Assembly (NCBI RefSeq): GCF_900103175.1
Contig: NZ_FNLF01000002.1
Location: forward strand, 1,874,136 to 1,938,135
From: Tsukamurella pulmonis
GTDB taxonomy: Bacteria; Actinomycetota; Actinomycetes; Mycobacteriales; Mycobacteriaceae
Reading direction: 5' to 3'
DNA: 64,000 nucleotides
This document shows, one piece after another, positions 5,506 through 46,060 of this stretch. The translations under genes and the position numbers were made by a program. Every line of letters starts with the position of its first letter. The first letter of the stretch is position 1. The notes beneath the pieces were generated by a model that was given only the letters and a program-made list of their open reading frames with translations, did not search any database and had not been told where the DNA came from.

Positions 5506-6779
5506 GAGGTGGAGGTGCGGGAGATGCCGAGCAGGTCGTTGTCCTGCGTCGACGGGGCGTCCTCGCGGGCCGTGGGCGGCGGGGTGCGACGCTTCGCGGG
5601 GCGCGGGCGACCGACCCACCACTGCGCCTTCGGGGCCCGGCTGAGCAGTTCCACGACGGCGAGCGTGATCGCGATCGTGAGCGCGTACGCCACCGCCGTC
5701 CCCAGGGGCGAGGGCAGCACCGTCGTGAGCCAGGAGGCGCCGTCGGACGTCCGGGGCAGCAGCAACAGTGCGAGCACCATGACGTGCACCAGGAAGACGC
5801 CGAAGGAGCGCTTCGCGCCGTAGGAGGCGAAGCGCGTGAGCCGTGGGACACGGTGCCGGTTGCGGGCCAGCAGCAGCCCGACGGTGTAGACCGCTGCCAC
5901 CAGCACGACGTACAGCACGAAGTTGCCGGGCTGGAAGACCGCCGACGCCACGATCGGCGCGGTCTCGTCGTTGAGGCGGGCCCGGTAGAGGACCTGCGCG
6001 CCCACCGCGGTCAGCGCCGCGAGGCCCAGCACCACGGGAGCGTGCCGCAGCAGGACGGCCTCGACCCGCTCGCGGTGGAAGGCGGTGAACACGCCCAGCA
6101 GAATGAAGAACTGGTACGGCACGAACGTGGCGTAGAGGTGCCAGAAGTTCTCGCTCCACCAGCCGGAGGTGGGGTTCCAGTAGGTGGCGGCCGTGTAGAT
6201 GCCGACCTGCAGCACGGCGCTCACCAGCAGGATGCGGCCGTGGTAGCGGCGGGTGCGTTCCGCGAACGCGAAGATCAGGGGGAACAGCACGTAGATCTGC
6301 AGGGTGACGAAGATGAAGTAGAGCTGGTAGCCGCCCGCGGGGCCGCCCCACTTCAGGGCGTCCCAGAACTCGCCCAGCCGGTGCGGGATCTCGCCGCCGA
6401 CGCCACCGGCGACCATGTCGTAGACCCAGTAGGCGAACGCCCACAGCACGAACGGCGTGATCACCAGCGTGAGCCGCTTGCGCCAGAACCGGACCGGGCT
6501 CAGCCGGGCGCCGCGCTCGACGATGCCGTAGGCCAGCACCAGGCCCGTCAGCGCGAAGAAGGCGTTGCGGGTGAAGTGCAGGTTCATCGCGATCGCGTTG
6601 GTGACGGTGCCGTTGACCTCGTCGTTGGTATTGGTCAGCGTGTGGATGAAGACCACGAGCAGGAACGTGATGGTGCGGACGAAATCCAGCTGGTAGAGGT
6701 AACCGCCGCGCGACGGGGAGCCCGCCGCGTCACCGGTGGCGACCGGGGACGCGGTGGATCGATCCAGGTGCGTGGCCAT
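5502..6779 (-). CDS. acyltransferase family 3 membrane protein
   Basis: A 425-residue integral membrane protein of the acyltransferase-3 (OafA/YrhL-like) family. These proteins transfer acyl groups to surface sugars or lipids at the cytoplasmic membrane. After a short polar N-terminus, the first membrane helix carries the family's conserved histidine (FLLVVFIHTL). About ten hydrophobic helices follow, and a polar cytoplasmic tail ends the protein. It lies 263 bases downstream of the glutamate decarboxylase gene and just upstream of the MerR gene. The acceptor is unknown. A CAGACT box six bases before the ATG could make the transcript leaderless. Confidence 0.8.
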   Translation of the reverse strand: MATHLDRSTASPVATGDAAGSPSRGGYLYQLDFVRTITFLLVVFIHTLTNTNDEVNGTVTNAIAMNLHFTRNAFFALTGLVLAYGIVERGARLSPVRFWRKRLTLVITPFVLWAFAYWVYDMVAGGVGGEIPHRLGEFWDALKWGGPAGGYQLYFIFVTLQIYVLFPLIFAFAERTRRYHGRILLVSAVLQVGIYTAATYWNPTSGWWSENFWHLYATFVPYQFFILLGVFTAFHRERVEAVLLRHAPVVLGLAALTAVGAQVLYRARLNDETAPIVASAVFQPGNFVLYVVLVAAVYTVGLLLARNRHRVPRLTRFASYGAKRSFGVFLVHVMVLALLLLPRTSDGASWLTTVLPSPLGTAVAYALTIAITLAVVELLSRAPKAQWWVGRPRPAKRRTPPPTAREDAPSTQDNDLLGISRTSTS

Positions 6780-6881
6780 GAGCTGAGTCTGCGGTCCGTT
6801 CCTGCTGGGGTGCTGAACGTGGCCTGGCAGTGGGCTACACCGGGCTGACGGTGCACCGCGCAGGCGACAACGGGGTGGAGT

Positions 6882-6895
6882 TTACCCGCTGGTAA
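6882..6895. promoter_or_regulatory. short palindrome upstream of acyltransferase gene
   Basis: TTACC-N4-GGTAA, about 100 bases upstream of the acyltransferase start, in the 263-base gap after gadB. It could be an operator. No other element is clear in this gap. Confidence 0.25.
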
Positions 6896-7042
6896 CCATT
6901 GCTCTCGCAACTACAGCGCCGAAGTGGCGCGTGTCACGCGACGGCGACCGTGCTCGCCCCCGAGCCTAGCCGCACTGCGGCGCCGGGCGGGCGAGCCGCG
7001 TGTCGTGCGGGCGATTGCGCAGCTCAGGGCGTCGTCGGGTAC

Positions 7043-8422
7043 TCAGTGATGGAACGCGCGGCGGTCGTCGGCGGTGTGGCGCGGGTCCAGTCGGGCCAGG
7101 GCGGCGATCACGTCCCCGCGGAGCTTGCCGGCCAGATCGCCCGAGAAGCCCTCGCGCACGACGATTCGCAGCACCGTGACGTCCTGGGCGTCCGCCGGCA
7201 TGGTGTACGCCGGCACCTGCCAGCCGGCCGCGCGCAGTTCGTGTGAGAGGTCGAACGCCGTGAACGGTGCCGCGTCGTCGACGGAGAACGTGACGACCGG
7301 CAGCGCGGAGCCGTCGCTGATCACGGTGAGGTGCGGCAGGGAGGCGATCTGCGCGGCGAGCCACATCGCGGTGCCACGCAGCGCCCGCATGATCTTGGTG
7401 TAGCCGTTGCGGCCGAGCCGGACGAAGTTGTAGTACTGCCCGATGATCTGCGCGCCGGGGCGCGAGAAGTTGAGCGTGAAGGTCGGCAGGTCGCCGCCGA
7501 GGTAGTTCACGCGAAAGACCAGGTCCTCGTCCAGGGCGGCGCGGTCGCGGAAGATCACGAACCCGATGCCCGGGTAGGTCAGGCCGTACTTGTGCCCGGA
7601 GGTGTTGATCGCGAAGACGCGGGGCAGCCGGAAGTCCCACACGAGGTCCGGGTCGAGGAACGGGGCGACGAAGCCGCCGCTCGCCGCATCGACGTGCACC
7701 GGAACGTCGGGGCCGCCGGACGCCGACAGCTCGTCGAGCGCGGCACAGACGCCGGCGACGTCTTCGTACTCGCCGGTGAAGGTGGTGCCGAGGAGGGTGA
7801 CCGCGCCGATGGTGTTCTCGTCGACAGCGTCGCGCACCTGCTCCGGCGTGACCACGTAGCGCCCCGGTTCGATGGGCAGGTACACCGGCTCCACGTCGAA
7901 GTAGCGGCAGAACTTCTCCCAGACGACCTGGACGTTCGATCCCAGCACCAGGTTGGGGGTGCTCGCGTCCAGGCCCGCGGCGCGCCGCTGCTTGCGCCAG
8001 CGCCACTTCATCGCGAGGCCGGCGAGCATGACCGCCTCGGACGAGCCGATCGTCGACGCGCCGGTCGCCGACGCCGGATCGTGCGGGTCCAGGCCGGGAG
8101 CGTGGAAGAGGTGCGCGACGATCGCGACGGTGCGGGACTCGATCGCCGAGGTCGCGGGGTACTCGTCGTGGTCGATCGCGTTCTTGTCGAAGGACTCGGC
8201 CATGAGGGCCTGGCCCTCCGGTTCCATCCAGGTGGTGACGAACGTGGCCAGATTGGTCCGGGACTGGCCGTCGAGGACGAGCTCGTCGTGGACGAAGCGG
8301 TACGCCGCCAGCGGCGGCGTCTCCTCGTCCGCGAGGCGGGCGCGGGGGAGCGGTTCGGTGCCGAGTCGTCCGGCGTACGCCGGCAGGAGGAGGCCTTCGT
8401 CGTCGCGGGGGTCGTTGCTCAT
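7043..8422 (-). CDS. gadB: glutamate decarboxylase
   Basis: A PLP-dependent decarboxylase converting glutamate to GABA, which consumes a proton in the cytoplasm. At 459 residues it has the usual GadB length. The PLP lysine lies in [11 protein letters not shown] at residue 278, close to Lys276 of E. coli GadB. Other matches are the N-terminal region ([15 protein letters not shown]), the substrate loop ([19 protein letters not shown]) and [13 protein letters not shown]. No GABA antiporter (gadC) is adjacent. A TAGTTT box (minus strand, 8429-8434) sits six bases before the ATG, so translation is probably leaderless. The promoter is divergent from that of rpsP. Confidence 0.92.
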
Positions 8423-40578: not shown

Positions 40579-41775
40579 TTACCGGTTCGCGCTTGGCGTC
40601 CGCTTGGCGATCGCGAACGCCAGCGCGGCACCGGCCGCGCAGAGCACCATCACCGTGCCGAGCACCACGGGGTTCCCACCGATCCCGGCGAACAGCGCCG
40701 CCACGCCGCCGAGCACCATGCGTGCCGCTCCGAGTGCGGCCGAGGCGGTGCCCGCCAGATTCCCGTGGTCGTCGAGGGCCAGCGCGGCGACCGTCGGCAT
40801 GACCAGGCCGAGGCTGGACACGGTCACGAACAGGGAGACGATCACCAGCGGCGGGTTGTCCGCGGCGAGGGAGCCGAGCGAAGCCACGGCGCCGATCACC
40901 ATGCCGGCCAGCCCGATCCGCACCAGCGTGGCGACCGGCACCCGCCCCACGAGACGACCGCCGATCAGATTGGTGGCGAGTAACCCGACCGCGTTCACGG
41001 CGAAGACGATGCTGAACTCCGACTCGGAGTAGCCGTAGTGACTCTGGAAGACGAAGGCGGACGTGGAGATGTAGGCGAACATCGCGGCGAAGGCCAGGCC
41101 GCCGGTCAGGGTGAGTGCCACGAATCGGCGATCACGGGCCAGCGAGGCGAAACCGCTCGCCACCGCCGCCCAGCCCACCGGTCGACGGTCCGCGGCCGGC
41201 AGGGTCTCCGGGACCTTCGCGGCGGCGATGGTGAGCAGAGCGACACCGAGGACGGCGAGCACGACGAACAGGCCGCGCCAGTCCATGAACCGCAGCAACT
41301 GCGCCCCCGCGAGGGGAGCGATGATCGGGGCCACGCCGCCGACGGCCATCAGCGCCGCGATCATCCGGGCCGCGGCGACACCGTCGAACAGGTCCCGGAC
41401 GATGGCCAGGCTCAACACGATTCCGGCGGCGCCCGCGGCGCCCTGCAGCAGCCGCGCGACGTCGAGCAGGTACACCGACGGGGCGACGGCGCACAGCAGC
41501 GAGCTGACGATGAACAGCGCCATGCCGACGATCATCGGGCGGCGCCGGCCGATCGAGTCCGAGAGCGGGCCGACGAAGATCTGCCCGACGGCGAGGCCGA
41601 TCAGGCAGGCGGTGAGCGTCGCCTGGATCGCCGGCTGCGAGGCGCCGAGGTCTGCGGCCGCCGCGGGGAGTGCGGGGAGGTAGAGGTCGGTCGTGATGGG
41701 ACCGAACGCCGACAGCGAGCCCAGGATCAGGGCCAGCCGCAGGTTTCCTCGGGAGTCTGCGCTGGGTCGTGTCAC
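40579..41775 (-). CDS. Bcr/CflA family MFS efflux transporter
   Basis: 398 residues with twelve helices. The start LSAFGPITTDLYLPALPA and the signature GPLSDSIGRRRPMI are diagnostic of the Bcr/CflA group (bicyclomycin or chloramphenicol efflux in others). The GTG start lies three bases after the stop of the FnIII-like gene and its ribosome site is inside that gene, so it is co-transcribed with the Hsp70 module. The substrate is unknown. Confidence 0.87.
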   Translation of the reverse strand: MTRPSADSRGNLRLALILGSLSAFGPITTDLYLPALPAAAADLGASQPAIQATLTACLIGLAVGQIFVGPLSDSIGRRRPMIVGMALFIVSSLLCAVAPSVYLLDVARLLQGAAGAAGIVLSLAIVRDLFDGVAAARMIAALMAVGGVAPIIAPLAGAQLLRFMDWRGLFVVLAVLGVALLTIAAAKVPETLPAADRRPVGWAAVASGFASLARDRRFVALTLTGGLAFAAMFAYISTSAFVFQSHYGYSESEFSIVFAVNAVGLLATNLIGGRLVGRVPVATLVRIGLAGMVIGAVASLGSLAADNPPLVIVSLFVTVSSLGLVMPTVAALALDDHGNLAGTASAALGAARMVLGGVAALFAGIGGNPVVLGTVMVLCAAGAALAFAIAKRTPSANR

Positions 41776-41778
41776 CCC

Positions 41779-43830
41779 TCAATCCAACCGCAGGTGCGCG
41801 GTCGGGGCGAAATCCGGCGCGATCAGCAGCGCCCCGTCCGGTGCCCGGCGGCAGGCGGCGACCGCGACATGGGCGGGGCGGGGCAGATCCGCGGGAAGGA
41901 CCGCGCCGCCGTCGATCTGATACCGGGTGTTGGTCACTTTCCAGGCCCGCGCCGTCGCATCGACGGGCGAGCGCGGCGGCCCGCCCACCCGCGCCGTGAC
42001 GTACGCCTCGGTGATGTCCGGGGGCCAGTCGAAGACCAGTCGGTCGCCGCGCAGCGCGACGTTCGCGATCGGCGGGAAGTCGCCCGCGGGGACCGGCTCC
42101 GGCGGGGCGGGTGGCGGGACGGACACCGGCGCGGACGGCGTGCTCGCGGGAGCGGGGACCGGCGCGGGGGAGCGACGGGCATCCGAGCGGGCCTCGGCCG
42201 ACGGGACGCCGTCGACGACCGCGACCACGGCGTAGACCGGCACCGCGCGGCGGGGTGCGCCGCCGTCTTCGAGCCGTCGCTCGCGGGTGCGGCCGACCAC
42301 GGTCCAACCGCCGTCGGGCCCCTGCCTGCTGACCTTGAAGGACGCATCCGGATGCGCGGAGTCCCAGGTGACCAGGACGGCACCGTCGGCCTGGCGGGCG
42401 GTGACGGCCGTGGGCGGCGCGGGCGCCGTGGTGGGCGACGCCGGCGTGGCGCCCGGCCCGGGATTCGGTGCGCCCGCCTGCGCGCCGCGGGCCTCGTCGA
42501 TGGCCTCCAGCAGCGGCGGCTGGCCGGGCGGCGGGGGAGCGTCCAGCGCGCCGCGCTGCAGTCGGGCGAGGGCGCGGGCGGCGTCGGAGGGCCGACCCGC
42601 CGCGCGCGCCGCGGCGACCTCGCGCCACAGGGCCGCGGCGTCGTCGAGAACGCGTCGCGCCTCGTCGGCGACGGTGCGCACCTGAGCACCGGCCGTGCCG
42701 TCATCGAGGCCGGCCGCCTCCGCGGCCAGGCGCGCCGCCTCTGCCGGGCGGCCCCGGCGCAGCGCCGCGCGGGCGGCCCTGAGCGGCGCCTCCCAGGCGC
42801 GCGGGGCGGCGGGAGCGGGTCGCGCCGAGGGCGCAGCGGCGGGAGCGGCGTTCCCTACCCCGCCGCCGTACTCGGCGGCCAGGTCCGCGAGCACCCGCTC
42901 GGCGGTGATGCGGTCCAGGCCGAGCTCCTCGCCCTCGCCGGCGAGGTACTCGTAGTCGGGGCCGACGAGCCGGTCCTCGATGAGGATCGCGGCGCGGACC
43001 TTGGGTCGCAGCGCCTCCGTGGCGTCCTCGATGACGGCGCGCGCGTACGCGTCGGCGAGCGGGCCGCCGGTGGCGAGCACCTCGCGGACGTGCACGCCCA
43101 GCTCGTCGAGGACCGCGCGGCTGCGGCCGGGAGGCATCTGCCGCGCGCGGCGGTGCAGGATCTCGGCGCGGTCGCGTATCTCCACCACGTCGTGCGCGTC
43201 GGCGGTGCCGAGACCGAGGAGGGAGAACAGGCTCGGTACGCGCTCGCCGCACAGCTCGCCCCACTCGGTGAGCAGGGAACGGATCTGCGTGCGGCGCTGC
43301 GGGGTCAGGCCCGCGAGCGCGGGGTCCGACGCGGGGACGTCGCCGGCGAGCACCCGATGGCGCCGGAGCCGGGTCGCGACCTCGGCCGGCGTGAGGCCGC
43401 CCAGCGCGCCCACCTCCTCGAGGCCGGCGACCTTCGCCGCGGGCACCCCGCCGTGCCGCTCGACGAGCCGTGCGATCGCGGTGTCGAGGATCTCGTACCG
43501 CGCGGCGTCCCGCTGTTCCCGCTCGGCGCGCACCCGGGCGGCCTCGGCCGCTCGACTCGCGGCGGATCGCAGTGGGGCGCTGCGCTGCTCGTGCTCGTCG
43601 ACGAGCCGCGCGACCAGGGTGCGGTACTTCGGGTGGTCGCGTTGGCGCTGCCAGAAGCCCCACACCTCGTCGAGCCGGACCGCGACCTCGGCGTCGGTGG
43701 GATCGGCCCCGTCGAGCGGCAGGTCGTAGAGCTCGAAGGCGTCGGCGTGCTCGGGGCCGCCGCGTCGCGCGACGTCGGCGAGCACCCGCTTGCGATAGCC
43801 GTTGGGATCGAACGGCGTCATCGGCGTCAT
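41779..43830 (-). CDS. large Hsp70-associated protein with FnIII-like domains
   Basis: 683 residues, no signal peptide or membrane helix. The N-terminal 330 residues are helical and charged (FELYDLPLDGADPTDAEVAV, then GFWQRQRDHPKYR at 58-70). Residues 340-430 are Ala/Arg-rich repeats like coiled or TPR-like helices. A Pro/Ala linker leads to two beta-sandwich segments, about 470-550 (AVTARQADGAVLVTWD, FnIII-like) and 583-680. It is not a J-protein by motif: HPK at 66-68 stands where HPD would be needed. The gene begins 15 bases after Hsp70, so it is probably its client or co-chaperone. I do not recognise a named family. Confidence 0.6.
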   Translation of the reverse strand: MTPMTPFDPNGYRKRVLADVARRGGPEHADAFELYDLPLDGADPTDAEVAVRLDEVWGFWQRQRDHPKYRTLVARLVDEHEQRSAPLRSAASRAAEAARVRAEREQRDAARYEILDTAIARLVERHGGVPAAKVAGLEEVGALGGLTPAEVATRLRRHRVLAGDVPASDPALAGLTPQRRTQIRSLLTEWGELCGERVPSLFSLLGLGTADAHDVVEIRDRAEILHRRARQMPPGRSRAVLDELGVHVREVLATGGPLADAYARAVIEDATEALRPKVRAAILIEDRLVGPDYEYLAGEGEELGLDRITAERVLADLAAEYGGGVGNAAPAAAPSARPAPAAPRAWEAPLRAARAALRRGRPAEAARLAAEAAGLDDGTAGAQVRTVADEARRVLDDAAALWREVAAARAAGRPSDAARALARLQRGALDAPPPPGQPPLLEAIDEARGAQAGAPNPGPGATPASPTTAPAPPTAVTARQADGAVLVTWDSAHPDASFKVSRQGPDGGWTVVGRTRERRLEDGGAPRRAVPVYAVVAVVDGVPSAEARSDARRSPAPVPAPASTPSAPVSVPPPAPPEPVPAGDFPPIANVALRGDRLVFDWPPDITEAYVTARVGGPPRSPVDATARAWKVTNTRYQIDGGAVLPADLPRPAHVAVAACRRAPDGALLIAPDFAPTAHLRLD

Positions 43831-43845
43831 CGTCGGTGCCTCCCT

Positions 43846-45525
43846 TCAGTCGCGCCGTCGGGAGCGCTGCACCTGGCCGAGCTCGCGCTCGACGTCGGCC
43901 TGCGAGAGCATCGCGCCGGTCTGGGCGGAGAGCGTGAGCGGCAGGTCCGCCTCGACGTGGTGCGCCGTCACGTGCAGCACCCCGTCGAAGCCCATCTCGA
44001 AGGTGATGCGCACCTCGCTGCCCGCGGGGTAGCCGGGCGGGATGTCTCGGATCGTGCCCTCCACCAACAGCTTCGCGTCACCGAGGCGCTGCGAGGCGAT
44101 CTGGCCCTGCTGCTCGACGACGGTGATCTCGATCTGCTGCTGGTCCTCGCGCATCGTGCCGAAGGAGCGGCGCACGCGCACCGGCAGAGTCTGGTTGCGC
44201 TCCACGAGCCACGTGACCCCGAGGTCGCCGTGATCGTGCACCGCCAGCACGCCGAAGCCGCGGGAGATCACCGTGTCGACCTGGATCTCCAGCATCCGGC
44301 GCACCATCGAGACCGGCTGCTGGAAGGACGCGGCGACGCGGGCGATCGAGTTCTCCAGCTCCGCCGCCGGCGCGTGCAGCGGGGGAGCGCCGTCGGGCAG
44401 GAGCCCGCGGGTCACCAGGTCGGCCGCCACGAGGCGCTCCATCTCCAGCTTCTCGCCGTACAGCGCCGCGCCGCGGGCCACCGCGAGGTCCGGGTCGTGC
44501 AGCTCGCCGTCGAGGCCGAGTTGCTCGCGCAGCGCGCGGGCGACGGCCGACATCCGCGAGGACCCGCCGACGAGCAGCAGCCGGTCGATCGTGTGCACGC
44601 CCCGCTTCTCCGCCGTCTTCAGGCAGTCCCGGGCCAGGTCGACGGTGCGCCGCAACAGCGGGGCCGTCATCTCCTCGAGCTCGGCGCGGGTGAGCGGGAC
44701 GACGGCGCGGGCACCGTCGTGCGCGATCACCACCTCGGTGCGCTCGGCGAGCGTCAGCTCGTGCTTGGCCTGTTCGGCGGCGAGCACCAGCGACTGCGAG
44801 CCCGCGGAATCGTCGAGCGGGTCCTCCGCGTCCGGGTTGGCCTCGCAGAAGCGCTGCGCGAGGTGCAGCGCGAGGCGCTCGTCCCAGTCGGCGCCGCCGA
44901 GCTGGTGATCGCCCTCCACCGCGAGGACGGAGATGCGGCGGTCGGCGAGCTCGATGACGGTGGCGTCGAAGGTGCCGCCGCCCAGGTCGTAGACCAGCAC
45001 CGTCTCGCGCGGCGCGCCCTTGCCGGTGTCGAGGCCGCCGTCGAGCCGGCCGAAGCCGTACGAGAGGGCCGCCGCGATCGGCTCGGACAGCACCCCGGCC
45101 ACGTCGAAGCCCGCGTACGCGCCGGCCTGGATGGTGGCGCGGCGCTCCTCGTCGCCGAAGTAGGCGGGCACGGTGATCACCGTGCGGTGCACGGGCTCGC
45201 CGCCGCTGAACGCGACGTCGCCCGCGAGGGACTTGAGGATCAGGGCCGAGACCGCCGGGGCCGACCAGGTCTCGCCGTACGCGCGGAAGCGCCACTGCGA
45301 GTCGCCCATCCGGCGCTTGACGAGGCTGCACACGTGCTCGGGATCGAGCCGGGCCTGGCGCCGCGCGCCCTCGCCGACGAGGTGGTCGTAGGAGGAGGCG
45401 AACAGGACCACGGAGGGCACCGTCGCCTCTCCGCCGAGCCCCCGGACGATCTCGGGACGCCCGTCGGCGCCGATGCGCGCGATCGCCGAATTGGTCGTGC
45501 CCAGGTCGATTCCGTAGACCCCCAT
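43846..45525 (-). CDS. Hsp70-family chaperone, short and lid-poor
   Basis: 559 residues from ATG 45525. The actin-like ATPase domain (about 1-370) has IDLGTTNSA at 6-14, VPAYFGDEERRATIQAG (phosphate and connect region), YDLGGGTFDATV (179-190) and LLLVGGSSRM (317-325). The substrate-binding beta domain is at about 415-530 (VERNQTLPVRVRRSF, then DGVLHVTA). Only about 30 residues follow, so the helical lid and the EEVD-like tail of DnaK are missing. Divergence and the non-standard neighbours show it is not the housekeeping dnaK. TAATAT (minus, 45533-45538) is seven bases before the ATG. Confidence 0.9.
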   Translation of the reverse strand: MGVYGIDLGTTNSAIARIGADGRPEIVRGLGGEATVPSVVLFASSYDHLVGEGARRQARLDPEHVCSLVKRRMGDSQWRFRAYGETWSAPAVSALILKSLAGDVAFSGGEPVHRTVITVPAYFGDEERRATIQAGAYAGFDVAGVLSEPIAAALSYGFGRLDGGLDTGKGAPRETVLVYDLGGGTFDATVIELADRRISVLAVEGDHQLGGADWDERLALHLAQRFCEANPDAEDPLDDSAGSQSLVLAAEQAKHELTLAERTEVVIAHDGARAVVPLTRAELEEMTAPLLRRTVDLARDCLKTAEKRGVHTIDRLLLVGGSSRMSAVARALREQLGLDGELHDPDLAVARGAALYGEKLEMERLVAADLVTRGLLPDGAPPLHAPAAELENSIARVAASFQQPVSMVRRMLEIQVDTVISRGFGVLAVHDHGDLGVTWLVERNQTLPVRVRRSFGTMREDQQQIEITVVEQQGQIASQRLGDAKLLVEGTIRDIPPGYPAGSEVRITFEMGFDGVLHVTAHHVEADLPLTLSAQTGAMLSQADVERELGQVQRSRRRD

Positions 45526-45532
45526 GGCGGGG

Positions 45533-45563
45533 ATATTAGCAGCGCACAGGCGCTCGCTAGGGT
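45533..45563. promoter_or_regulatory. divergent promoters of hsp70-like and grpE-like genes
   Basis: Minus-strand TAATAT (45533-45538) serves the Hsp70 gene, with a leaderless spacing of seven bases. Plus-strand TAGGGT (45558-45563) lies eight bases before the GrpE-like ATG. The two start codons are only 46 bases apart, so both units are likely controlled together. Confidence 0.55.
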
Positions 45564-45571
45564 GGGTGAGC

Positions 45572-46060
45572 ATGAGCGCTGACGAGGTCGCGACGCCCTC
45601 CGGATCCGACGGTGACCGACTGGCGGAACAGGTACAGGACCTGGCCCGGATCCTGGCGCGGCAGGCCGGCACCGTCGAGCGGTTGGCGGACGCCGAGCAG
45701 GCCCGCGCGGCCCGCGATCGGGCCGGTGCCGACCTGCCGCTCGTCGTCGAGCTGTTCGCCCTCCTGGGCGAGGTGACGGCGTGCGCGGACACCGCCGGAT
45801 CCGAGCGCGAGCGCGCGGCGTTCGCCGCCGTCGCCGCGCGCGTCGAGCGCCTGCTCGTGGGGCGCGGCGGCACGGTCGTGGTGCCCGCCGTCGGCGACGT
45901 CTTCGACGCGGCCGTGATGGAGGCTGCGGACGTGGTCGACGCCGCCGACGCCGGCGAGGACCGCACCGTCGAGGCGGTCCTGGCGCCGGGGCTGAGCGTG
46001 CCCGGGCGTTCGGTGCGCCCCGCACGGGTCGTGGTCCGACGGTTCCGCGGTCAGGCGTAG
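45572..46060 (+). CDS. GrpE-like nucleotide exchange factor
   Basis: 162 residues. A short N-terminal helix (DRLAEQVQDLARILARQAGTVERLADAE region) is followed by a helical core and the GrpE beta-wing: GDVFDAAVMEAADVVDA (108-124), VEAVLAPGLSVPGRSVRPARVVV (133-155), matching the end of GrpE proteins. The long coiled N-terminal helix of canonical GrpE is shortened. It should release ADP from the divergent Hsp70. ATG 45572 is chosen. Confidence 0.75.
   Translation: MSADEVATPSGSDGDRLAEQVQDLARILARQAGTVERLADAEQARAARDRAGADLPLVVELFALLGEVTACADTAGSERERAAFAAVAARVERLLVGRGGTVVVPAVGDVFDAAVMEAADVVDAADAGEDRTVEAVLAPGLSVPGRSVRPARVVVRRFRGQA

Follow-up and report, generated by a model that had tools for sequence, protein, structure and literature searches.

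The Hsp70 locus of Tsukamurella pulmonis

What controls an Hsp70 when neither side of the usual J-protein contact can be recognised? Control of Hsp70s by J-proteins, through the HPD motif of the J-domain and one arginine of the chaperone, is treated as a general rule of Hsp70 biology. A locus of Tsukamurella pulmonis raises this question. It occupies positions 41,779 to 46,060 of a 64,000-nucleotide stretch of contig NZ_FNLF01000002.1 (hereafter the window), and consists of an Hsp70 gene together with genes for a GrpE-like factor and for a large protein with FnIII domains, here called the partner. The best explanation, which we hold with somewhat better than even confidence, is that these genes form a GTPase-less module whose Hsp70 is uncoupled from the HPD/arginine trigger and is probably controlled by its cognate partner. 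The components of the locus are as follows.

41779-43830, minus strand: partner protein, 683 residues, ending in two FnIII domains
43846-45525, minus strand: Hsp70, 559 residues (PF00012, E 1.5e-87)
45526-45571: divergent intergenic region, 46 bp between the Hsp70 and GrpE start codons
45572-46060, plus strand: GrpE-like nucleotide exchange factor, 162 residues (PF01025, E 2.4e-6)

The three genes look real because the GC content of their third codon positions is coding-like (0.91-0.97) and their ratios of nonsynonymous to synonymous substitution (dN/dS) are low. Compared with T. tyrosinosolvens and T. pseudospumae respectively, dN/dS is 0.09 and 0.14 for the Hsp70, 0.22 and 0.29 for the partner, and 0.26 and 0.34 for the GrpE-like protein; all three are under purifying selection. 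The Hsp70 stop codon and the partner ATG lie 15 bp apart on the same strand. This gap and the divergent spacing of 46 bases had both been described in an earlier reading made from the sequence alone (the sequence-only reading), and the coordinates agree. Elsewhere in the genome there is a canonical dnaK, and DnaJ is encoded by two genes.

An Hsp70 without the J-protein contact residues

With a solved DnaK as reference, residues 3-360 of the window Hsp70 align to the nucleotide-binding domain (NBD) and residues 437-555 to the beta part of the substrate-binding domain (SBD-beta), with about 47 additional residues separating the two. The chain ends where the lid would begin, and the alpha-helical lid is absent. 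The protein is an Hsp70, having an ATPase domain with the catalytic residues as well as SBD-beta, as the sequence-only reading had proposed in calling it lid-poor with both domains intact. It does not qualify as a DnaK orthologue, since it scores 307.9 bits against a cut-off of 822.55 for TIGR02350 and has no lid. Its identity to the DnaK of the same genome is 36%, and to the corresponding Hsp70s of four Tsukamurella records 91-96%.

The 162-residue protein passes the Pfam GrpE threshold narrowly (27.8 bits, gathering score 25.8), and the matched portion (residues 97-155) is the GrpE C-terminal beta domain. It lies below all NCBIfam GrpE cut-offs among the matches listed. The earlier description of this protein as GrpE-like, which the lack of any GrpE match would have undermined, is borne out by the Pfam result.

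In DnaK, R167 meets the aspartate of the HPD motif and the linker residue L391 meets its histidine (PMC13012618), and both the HPD aspartate and the Hsp70 arginine have been termed invariant (PMC7289447). The window Hsp70 has glycine at the R167 position, serine at the N170 position and no VLLLD linker, and therefore lacks the hallmarks of a J-responsive Hsp70 (R167, VLLLD linker). These columns were read from an ungapped block of 36 lid-less Hsp70 rows, comprising 16 from stand-alone loci of the window type and 20 linked to GAP1-N2 GTPase systems (both described below). Arginine occurs at the R167 position in none of the 36: the stand-alone rows (16/16) have G, D or A there, and the GAP1-linked rows (20/20) D, N, G, E or Q. 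The N170 column is uniformly S in the stand-alone rows (16/16) and mixed in the GAP1-linked ones (P in eight, S in four, A in four, T in three, N in one). A VLLLD linker, exact or nearly so, occurs in 0/36 rows. Retention of the linker aspartate hinges on a one-residue shift of the alignment. K70, P143, E171, T199 and D201 are conserved throughout (36/36). As a control, 20 DnaK regions of the same order were fetched, three of which yielded no sequence; this set holds canonical DnaKs only and no other Hsp70 types, and R, N and VLLLD are present in 17/17.

Aspartate is the natural residue at the R167 position in 5/16 stand-alone and 9/20 GAP1-linked rows. When the arginine of DnaK is replaced by aspartate, basal ATPase activity is raised and stimulation by DnaJ is not effective, and in simulation SBD-beta partly disengages (PMC7289447). 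Among the papers listed by literature searches none was seen to describe R167 loss in this lineage, which does not mean that the loss has gone unreported.

The partner protein and its J-like region

The partner is without a match in Pfam, NCBIfam or PADLOC. The alignment of partners has 15 rows, namely the window partner (P0003) and those of 14 of the 16 related loci; L014 was dropped because its start motif was not found and L018 because the gene is broken. All parts are encoded on the minus strand.

43336-43830, minus strand: residues 1-165, helical N-terminal domain in which EVWGFWQ and PKY are invariant, common to the GAP1-N2-linked partners; includes HPK at 66-68
43021-43236, minus strand: residues 199-270, predicted J-like fold with P233-P234-G235 at the HPD position
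42472-42792, minus strand: residues ~347-453, TPR-like helical hairpins
42178-42432, minus strand: residues ~467-551, FnIII domain 1, by fold
41782-42075, minus strand: residues ~586-683, FnIII domain 2, by fold

TPR_19 matches weakly, in two of the 15 members and with a best E of 0.007. The two beta-sandwich segments noticed by the sequence-only reading correspond to the FnIII domains. Its statement that no J-protein is present was its weak point, in view of the J-like fold predicted inside the partner, and the HPK that it noted at 66-68 is no degenerate HPD. Residues 1-95 carry no J signal, as 83 of 150 shuffles score as high against DnaJ, and the GAP1-N2-linked relatives have other letters at this place (QLKY, KKTH). 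Nor is there a signal that the N-terminal and J-like parts repeat one another (hhalign P 0.17).

The region around residues 199-270 is different. Three J-domains head a ranking of 250 for this region, with a gap below them, and its profile outscores all shuffles when compared with DnaJ, the J profile having been built from 31 DnaJ sequences closely related to one another. A J-like fold is therefore likely here, though not proven. At the aligned position between helices II and III, HPD is found in 0/15 partners; PPG, PAG or PPD stands there instead. The alternative is that the likeness is a chance one between helical bundles, and that the partner, being without J-related ancestry, exerts its control over the Hsp70 through other parts only. 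Besides the missing HPD, this would agree with an hhalign J-domain probability of 5%, with the lack of a J-domain among the Foldseek matches listed, and with the lack of J profile signal in the GAP1-linked partners (a profile from which L114 and L120 were left out and which is weakened by a wrong stretch for L100 and L105). Chance would, however, have to account both for the leading place of the three J-domains and for the profile score above every shuffle, and we consider it improbable, though less so than the alternatives discussed below.

An HPD triplet does occur in the window partner at residues 493-495 (42346-42354), inside FnIII domain 1. It is present in 0/14 relatives and is taken as chance.

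How the module may work

The trigger contact is missing on both sides, because the Hsp70 lacks R167 and VLLLD and the partner lacks HPD at the matching place; DnaJ therefore presumably does not trigger this Hsp70 in the ordinary manner. It can be envisaged that the partner docks on the Hsp70 through its helical N-terminal half, including the J-like fold, which would serve for docking and not for triggering. The TPR-like and FnIII domains would hold a particular client or assembly, and the FnIII domains may, as the sequence-only reading proposed, select the client. Loss of R167 might loosen the latch between NBD and SBD-beta and, in the absence of a lid, the clamp could act on large or folded clients, with the short GrpE resetting the nucleotide. 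The Hsp70 would then be an ATP-timed clamp or an assembly switch and not a general refolding machine. More broadly, and only tentatively, since we place it somewhat short of even, this Hsp70 lineage may have abandoned the HPD-arginine trigger, R167 having been lost from the Hsp70 and HPD from the J-like domain of the partner. Its present driver would be a cognate scaffold that uses a J-like fold to dock but not to trigger, both in the GTPase systems and, independently of them, here.

The module resembles the canonical DnaK-GrpE-DnaJ system in its NBD, SBD-beta, catalytic residues and GrpE, and differs from it in lacking the lid, R167, N170, VLLLD and an HPD-bearing partner, and in the extra residues between NBD and SBD-beta. 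A J-like domain without a working HPD beside an Hsp70 has a counterpart in Pam16, which pairs with a true J-protein, Pam18. The likeness is one of description, and the window locus differs in having no true J partner. Likewise by description, a specialised Hsp70 paralogue with its own GrpE gene is known from Myxococcus, where mxdnaK2 is in an operon with MXAN_6672 (PMC11019930); unlike in the window, no FnIII partner is described for mxdnaK2 in the available text of that paper.

Another proposal would be that this is an ordinary second Hsp70 on which the two DnaJs of the genome act in trans; the FnIII protein would then do no more than adapt substrates, and the altered R167 position and linker would reflect tolerated drift. 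The presence of the two DnaJ genes is in keeping with it, as is the frequency with which Actinobacteria carry more than one dnaK (19.4% of 3247 genomes; PMC11019930). Drift is nevertheless hard to reconcile with a protein that is otherwise strongly constrained, and in which the arginine is missing from every lid-less row, N170 has become S in every stand-alone row and is kept in a single GAP1-linked one, while all the canonical DnaKs retain both residues and the linker. This proposal thus seems unlikely. Hsp70s that keep the ATPase residues and an exchange factor of their own but have neither side of the contact are a natural experiment on its function, and the family points to a type of Hsp70 regulator with FnIII domains.

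Relation to GAP1-N2 GTPase systems

A gene set of this kind has been known since 2020: about 14% of GAP1-N2 neighbourhoods encode HSP70 and GrpE together with an FnIII protein to which a DnaJ domain or TPRs are fused (Kaur et al. 2020, PMC7159879). The terms 'HPD', 'J-domain', 'Tsukamurella' and 'Nocardia' do not appear in the main text of that article. Among 394 genomes of the class, 49 have GAP1-N2 itself (54 matches), and 41 of the 54 neighbourhoods were examined. An Hsp70 matching the window Hsp70 profile is present in 18 of these 41, at 334-461 bits; with the same profile, the T. pulmonis DnaK scores 271 bits and the second Hsp70s of neighbourhoods L119 and L121, each of which has two different Hsp70 genes, 270 and 263. 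Identity alone would not make this link, because the GAP1-linked Hsp70s are 33-43% identical to the window Hsp70 (P0001) and the 36% of its own DnaK is not clearly below that range. The lid is absent in 20/20 GAP1-linked Hsp70s, which have 2-23 residues after the match.

A homologue of the partner occurs in 15 GAP1-N2 neighbourhoods, directly downstream of the Hsp70 gene and on the same strand in 13; the match is weak in L120 (E 0.04), and the stretches examined for L103 and L105 contain no Hsp70. Profile and hhalign comparisons place the homology in the FnIII part as well as in the middle and the N-terminal domain; one alignment set eight of the 15 stand-alone partners beside the 15 GAP1-linked ones. 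With tblastn, 12 of the 41 neighbourhoods yielded a GrpE; these include the query's own locus and L114, where the gene lies far from the Hsp70.

The window locus is nevertheless not a GAP1-N2 system. The genome itself lacks GAP1-N2 (PF20013). Of the 41 genomes in the search for relatives, one has it and none of the 16 belonging to the genus does; DO-GTPase2 (PF19993) exceeds its cut-off in none of the 16 genus genomes (a sub-threshold match in G014 covers 26 positions). In addition, the window GrpE gene is divergent and not upstream, and partners of the window type are mostly shorter. In a tree of the Hsp70s, made like the alignment without L007 and L018, the 16 stand-alone rows form one group of their own with full support (100/100). 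The tree does not settle where this group joins the GAP1-linked Hsp70s, the deep forks being long-branched and the sole outgroup a single DnaK. Of two other alignments, one was made without L020 and L021 and the other without L007, L020 and L021. On these sequence comparisons, the locus is a GTPase-less, stand-alone relative of the known HSP70-GrpE-FnIII module and not a member of a GAP1-N2 system, because its Hsp70 and partner are homologous to those of the systems, yet GAP1-N2 is absent and DO-GTPase2 below cut-off. The view of the sequence-only reading that this is a specialised stand-alone machine is thus upheld as regards a conserved set with its own GrpE and FnIII partner, and has to be qualified in that the set is a relative of a published theme. 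With the chaperone half of GAP1-N2 systems separated from the GTPase half, its role can be studied alone.

Kaur et al. propose that GAP1-N2 systems act in biological conflict, and it might be supposed that the window module is likewise an anti-phage or other conflict system in which an unlinked or unknown effector replaces the GTPase. The homology of the components suits this, and so does their patchy occurrence in the order (see below), but none of the three proteins has a PADLOC match and no recurring adjacent effector was seen in flanks that vary by genus, as judged from open reading frame (ORF) starts and from ten neighbours scanned with Pfam. We regard a role in conflict as improbable.

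One of the GAP1 loci, L028 (2232-8554), has a lid-less Hsp70 and a GrpE beside a GAP1-N2/DO-GTPase2/tubulin system, with a 658-residue neighbour that belongs to no known family and bears no detectable resemblance to the window partner. Homology of the window partner to three large family-less proteins of this locus was considered, and the comparison is not significant.

Distribution, promoter region and neighbouring genes

Fourteen loci with close relatives of the partner were retrieved from 84,980 species genomes, and another two from plasmids; these 16 loci, gathered through the partner and not through the Hsp70, belong to six genera. By tblastn, Hsp70 precedes the partner on the same strand and GrpE lies on the opposite strand before Hsp70 in 16/16, and since it recurs in all of them the arrangement is not due to chance. 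The three-gene set for which the sequence-only reading suggested a search in other actinobacteria is found there, with the partner next to Hsp70. In Millisia about 0.6 kb separates the two genes; in L007 a contig end cuts the partner, and L030, being the same contig, was counted with it once. In L018, from the complete genome of Tsukamurella sp. PLM1, the partner gene (6001-8124) is split over several frames and is either a pseudogene or the product of sequencing errors. A motif search added one genome, L029, with all three genes. The distribution looks patchy, since the exact 24-base degenerate motif was found in at least 3 of 298 genomes of the order, that of T. pulmonis included.

In the divergent intergenic region, the end of a minus-strand TAATAT lies 7 nt upstream of the Hsp70 ATG. 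TANNNT ends 5-9 nt upstream of the Hsp70 start in 18/18 loci (the 16 loci, the window and L029), and is seen only once in the remaining position bins up to 49 nt upstream. The Hsp70 mRNA is therefore probably leaderless, to judge from this sequence pattern. Exact matches to the HspR operator HAIR number 0 within the window.

Genes of the Ter group adjoin the module in several relatives. DUF475/TerC and TerD genes follow the partner in Pseudonocardia (L013, L019) and a TerD gene adjoins grpE in Millisia (L017:2450-3028), all identified by Pfam, and TerD-like ORF starts lie downstream of the partner in L014 and L016. This proximity in 5/16 loci and two genera suggests a link with Ter stress genes. 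That the module as a whole should be a stress module tied to TerD/TerC is very doubtful, because these five loci (Pfam-confirmed in three) stand against 11 others in whose flanks no Ter gene was seen by ORF starts, no genome-wide Ter search having been made.

In the record of T. tyrosinosolvens labelled "plasmid 19" (L021), the locus is flanked by zwf and xerC and the surroundings look chromosomal, so that the plasmid label may be an artefact of assembly naming. In the window, the stop codon of the partner and the start of the next gene downstream, for an MFS efflux protein, overlap (41775-41782); an M48 peptidase gene follows. The order partner, MFS and M48 peptidase is seen again in T. tyrosinosolvens, and ORF starts point to it in T. 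pseudospumae (L006) as well.
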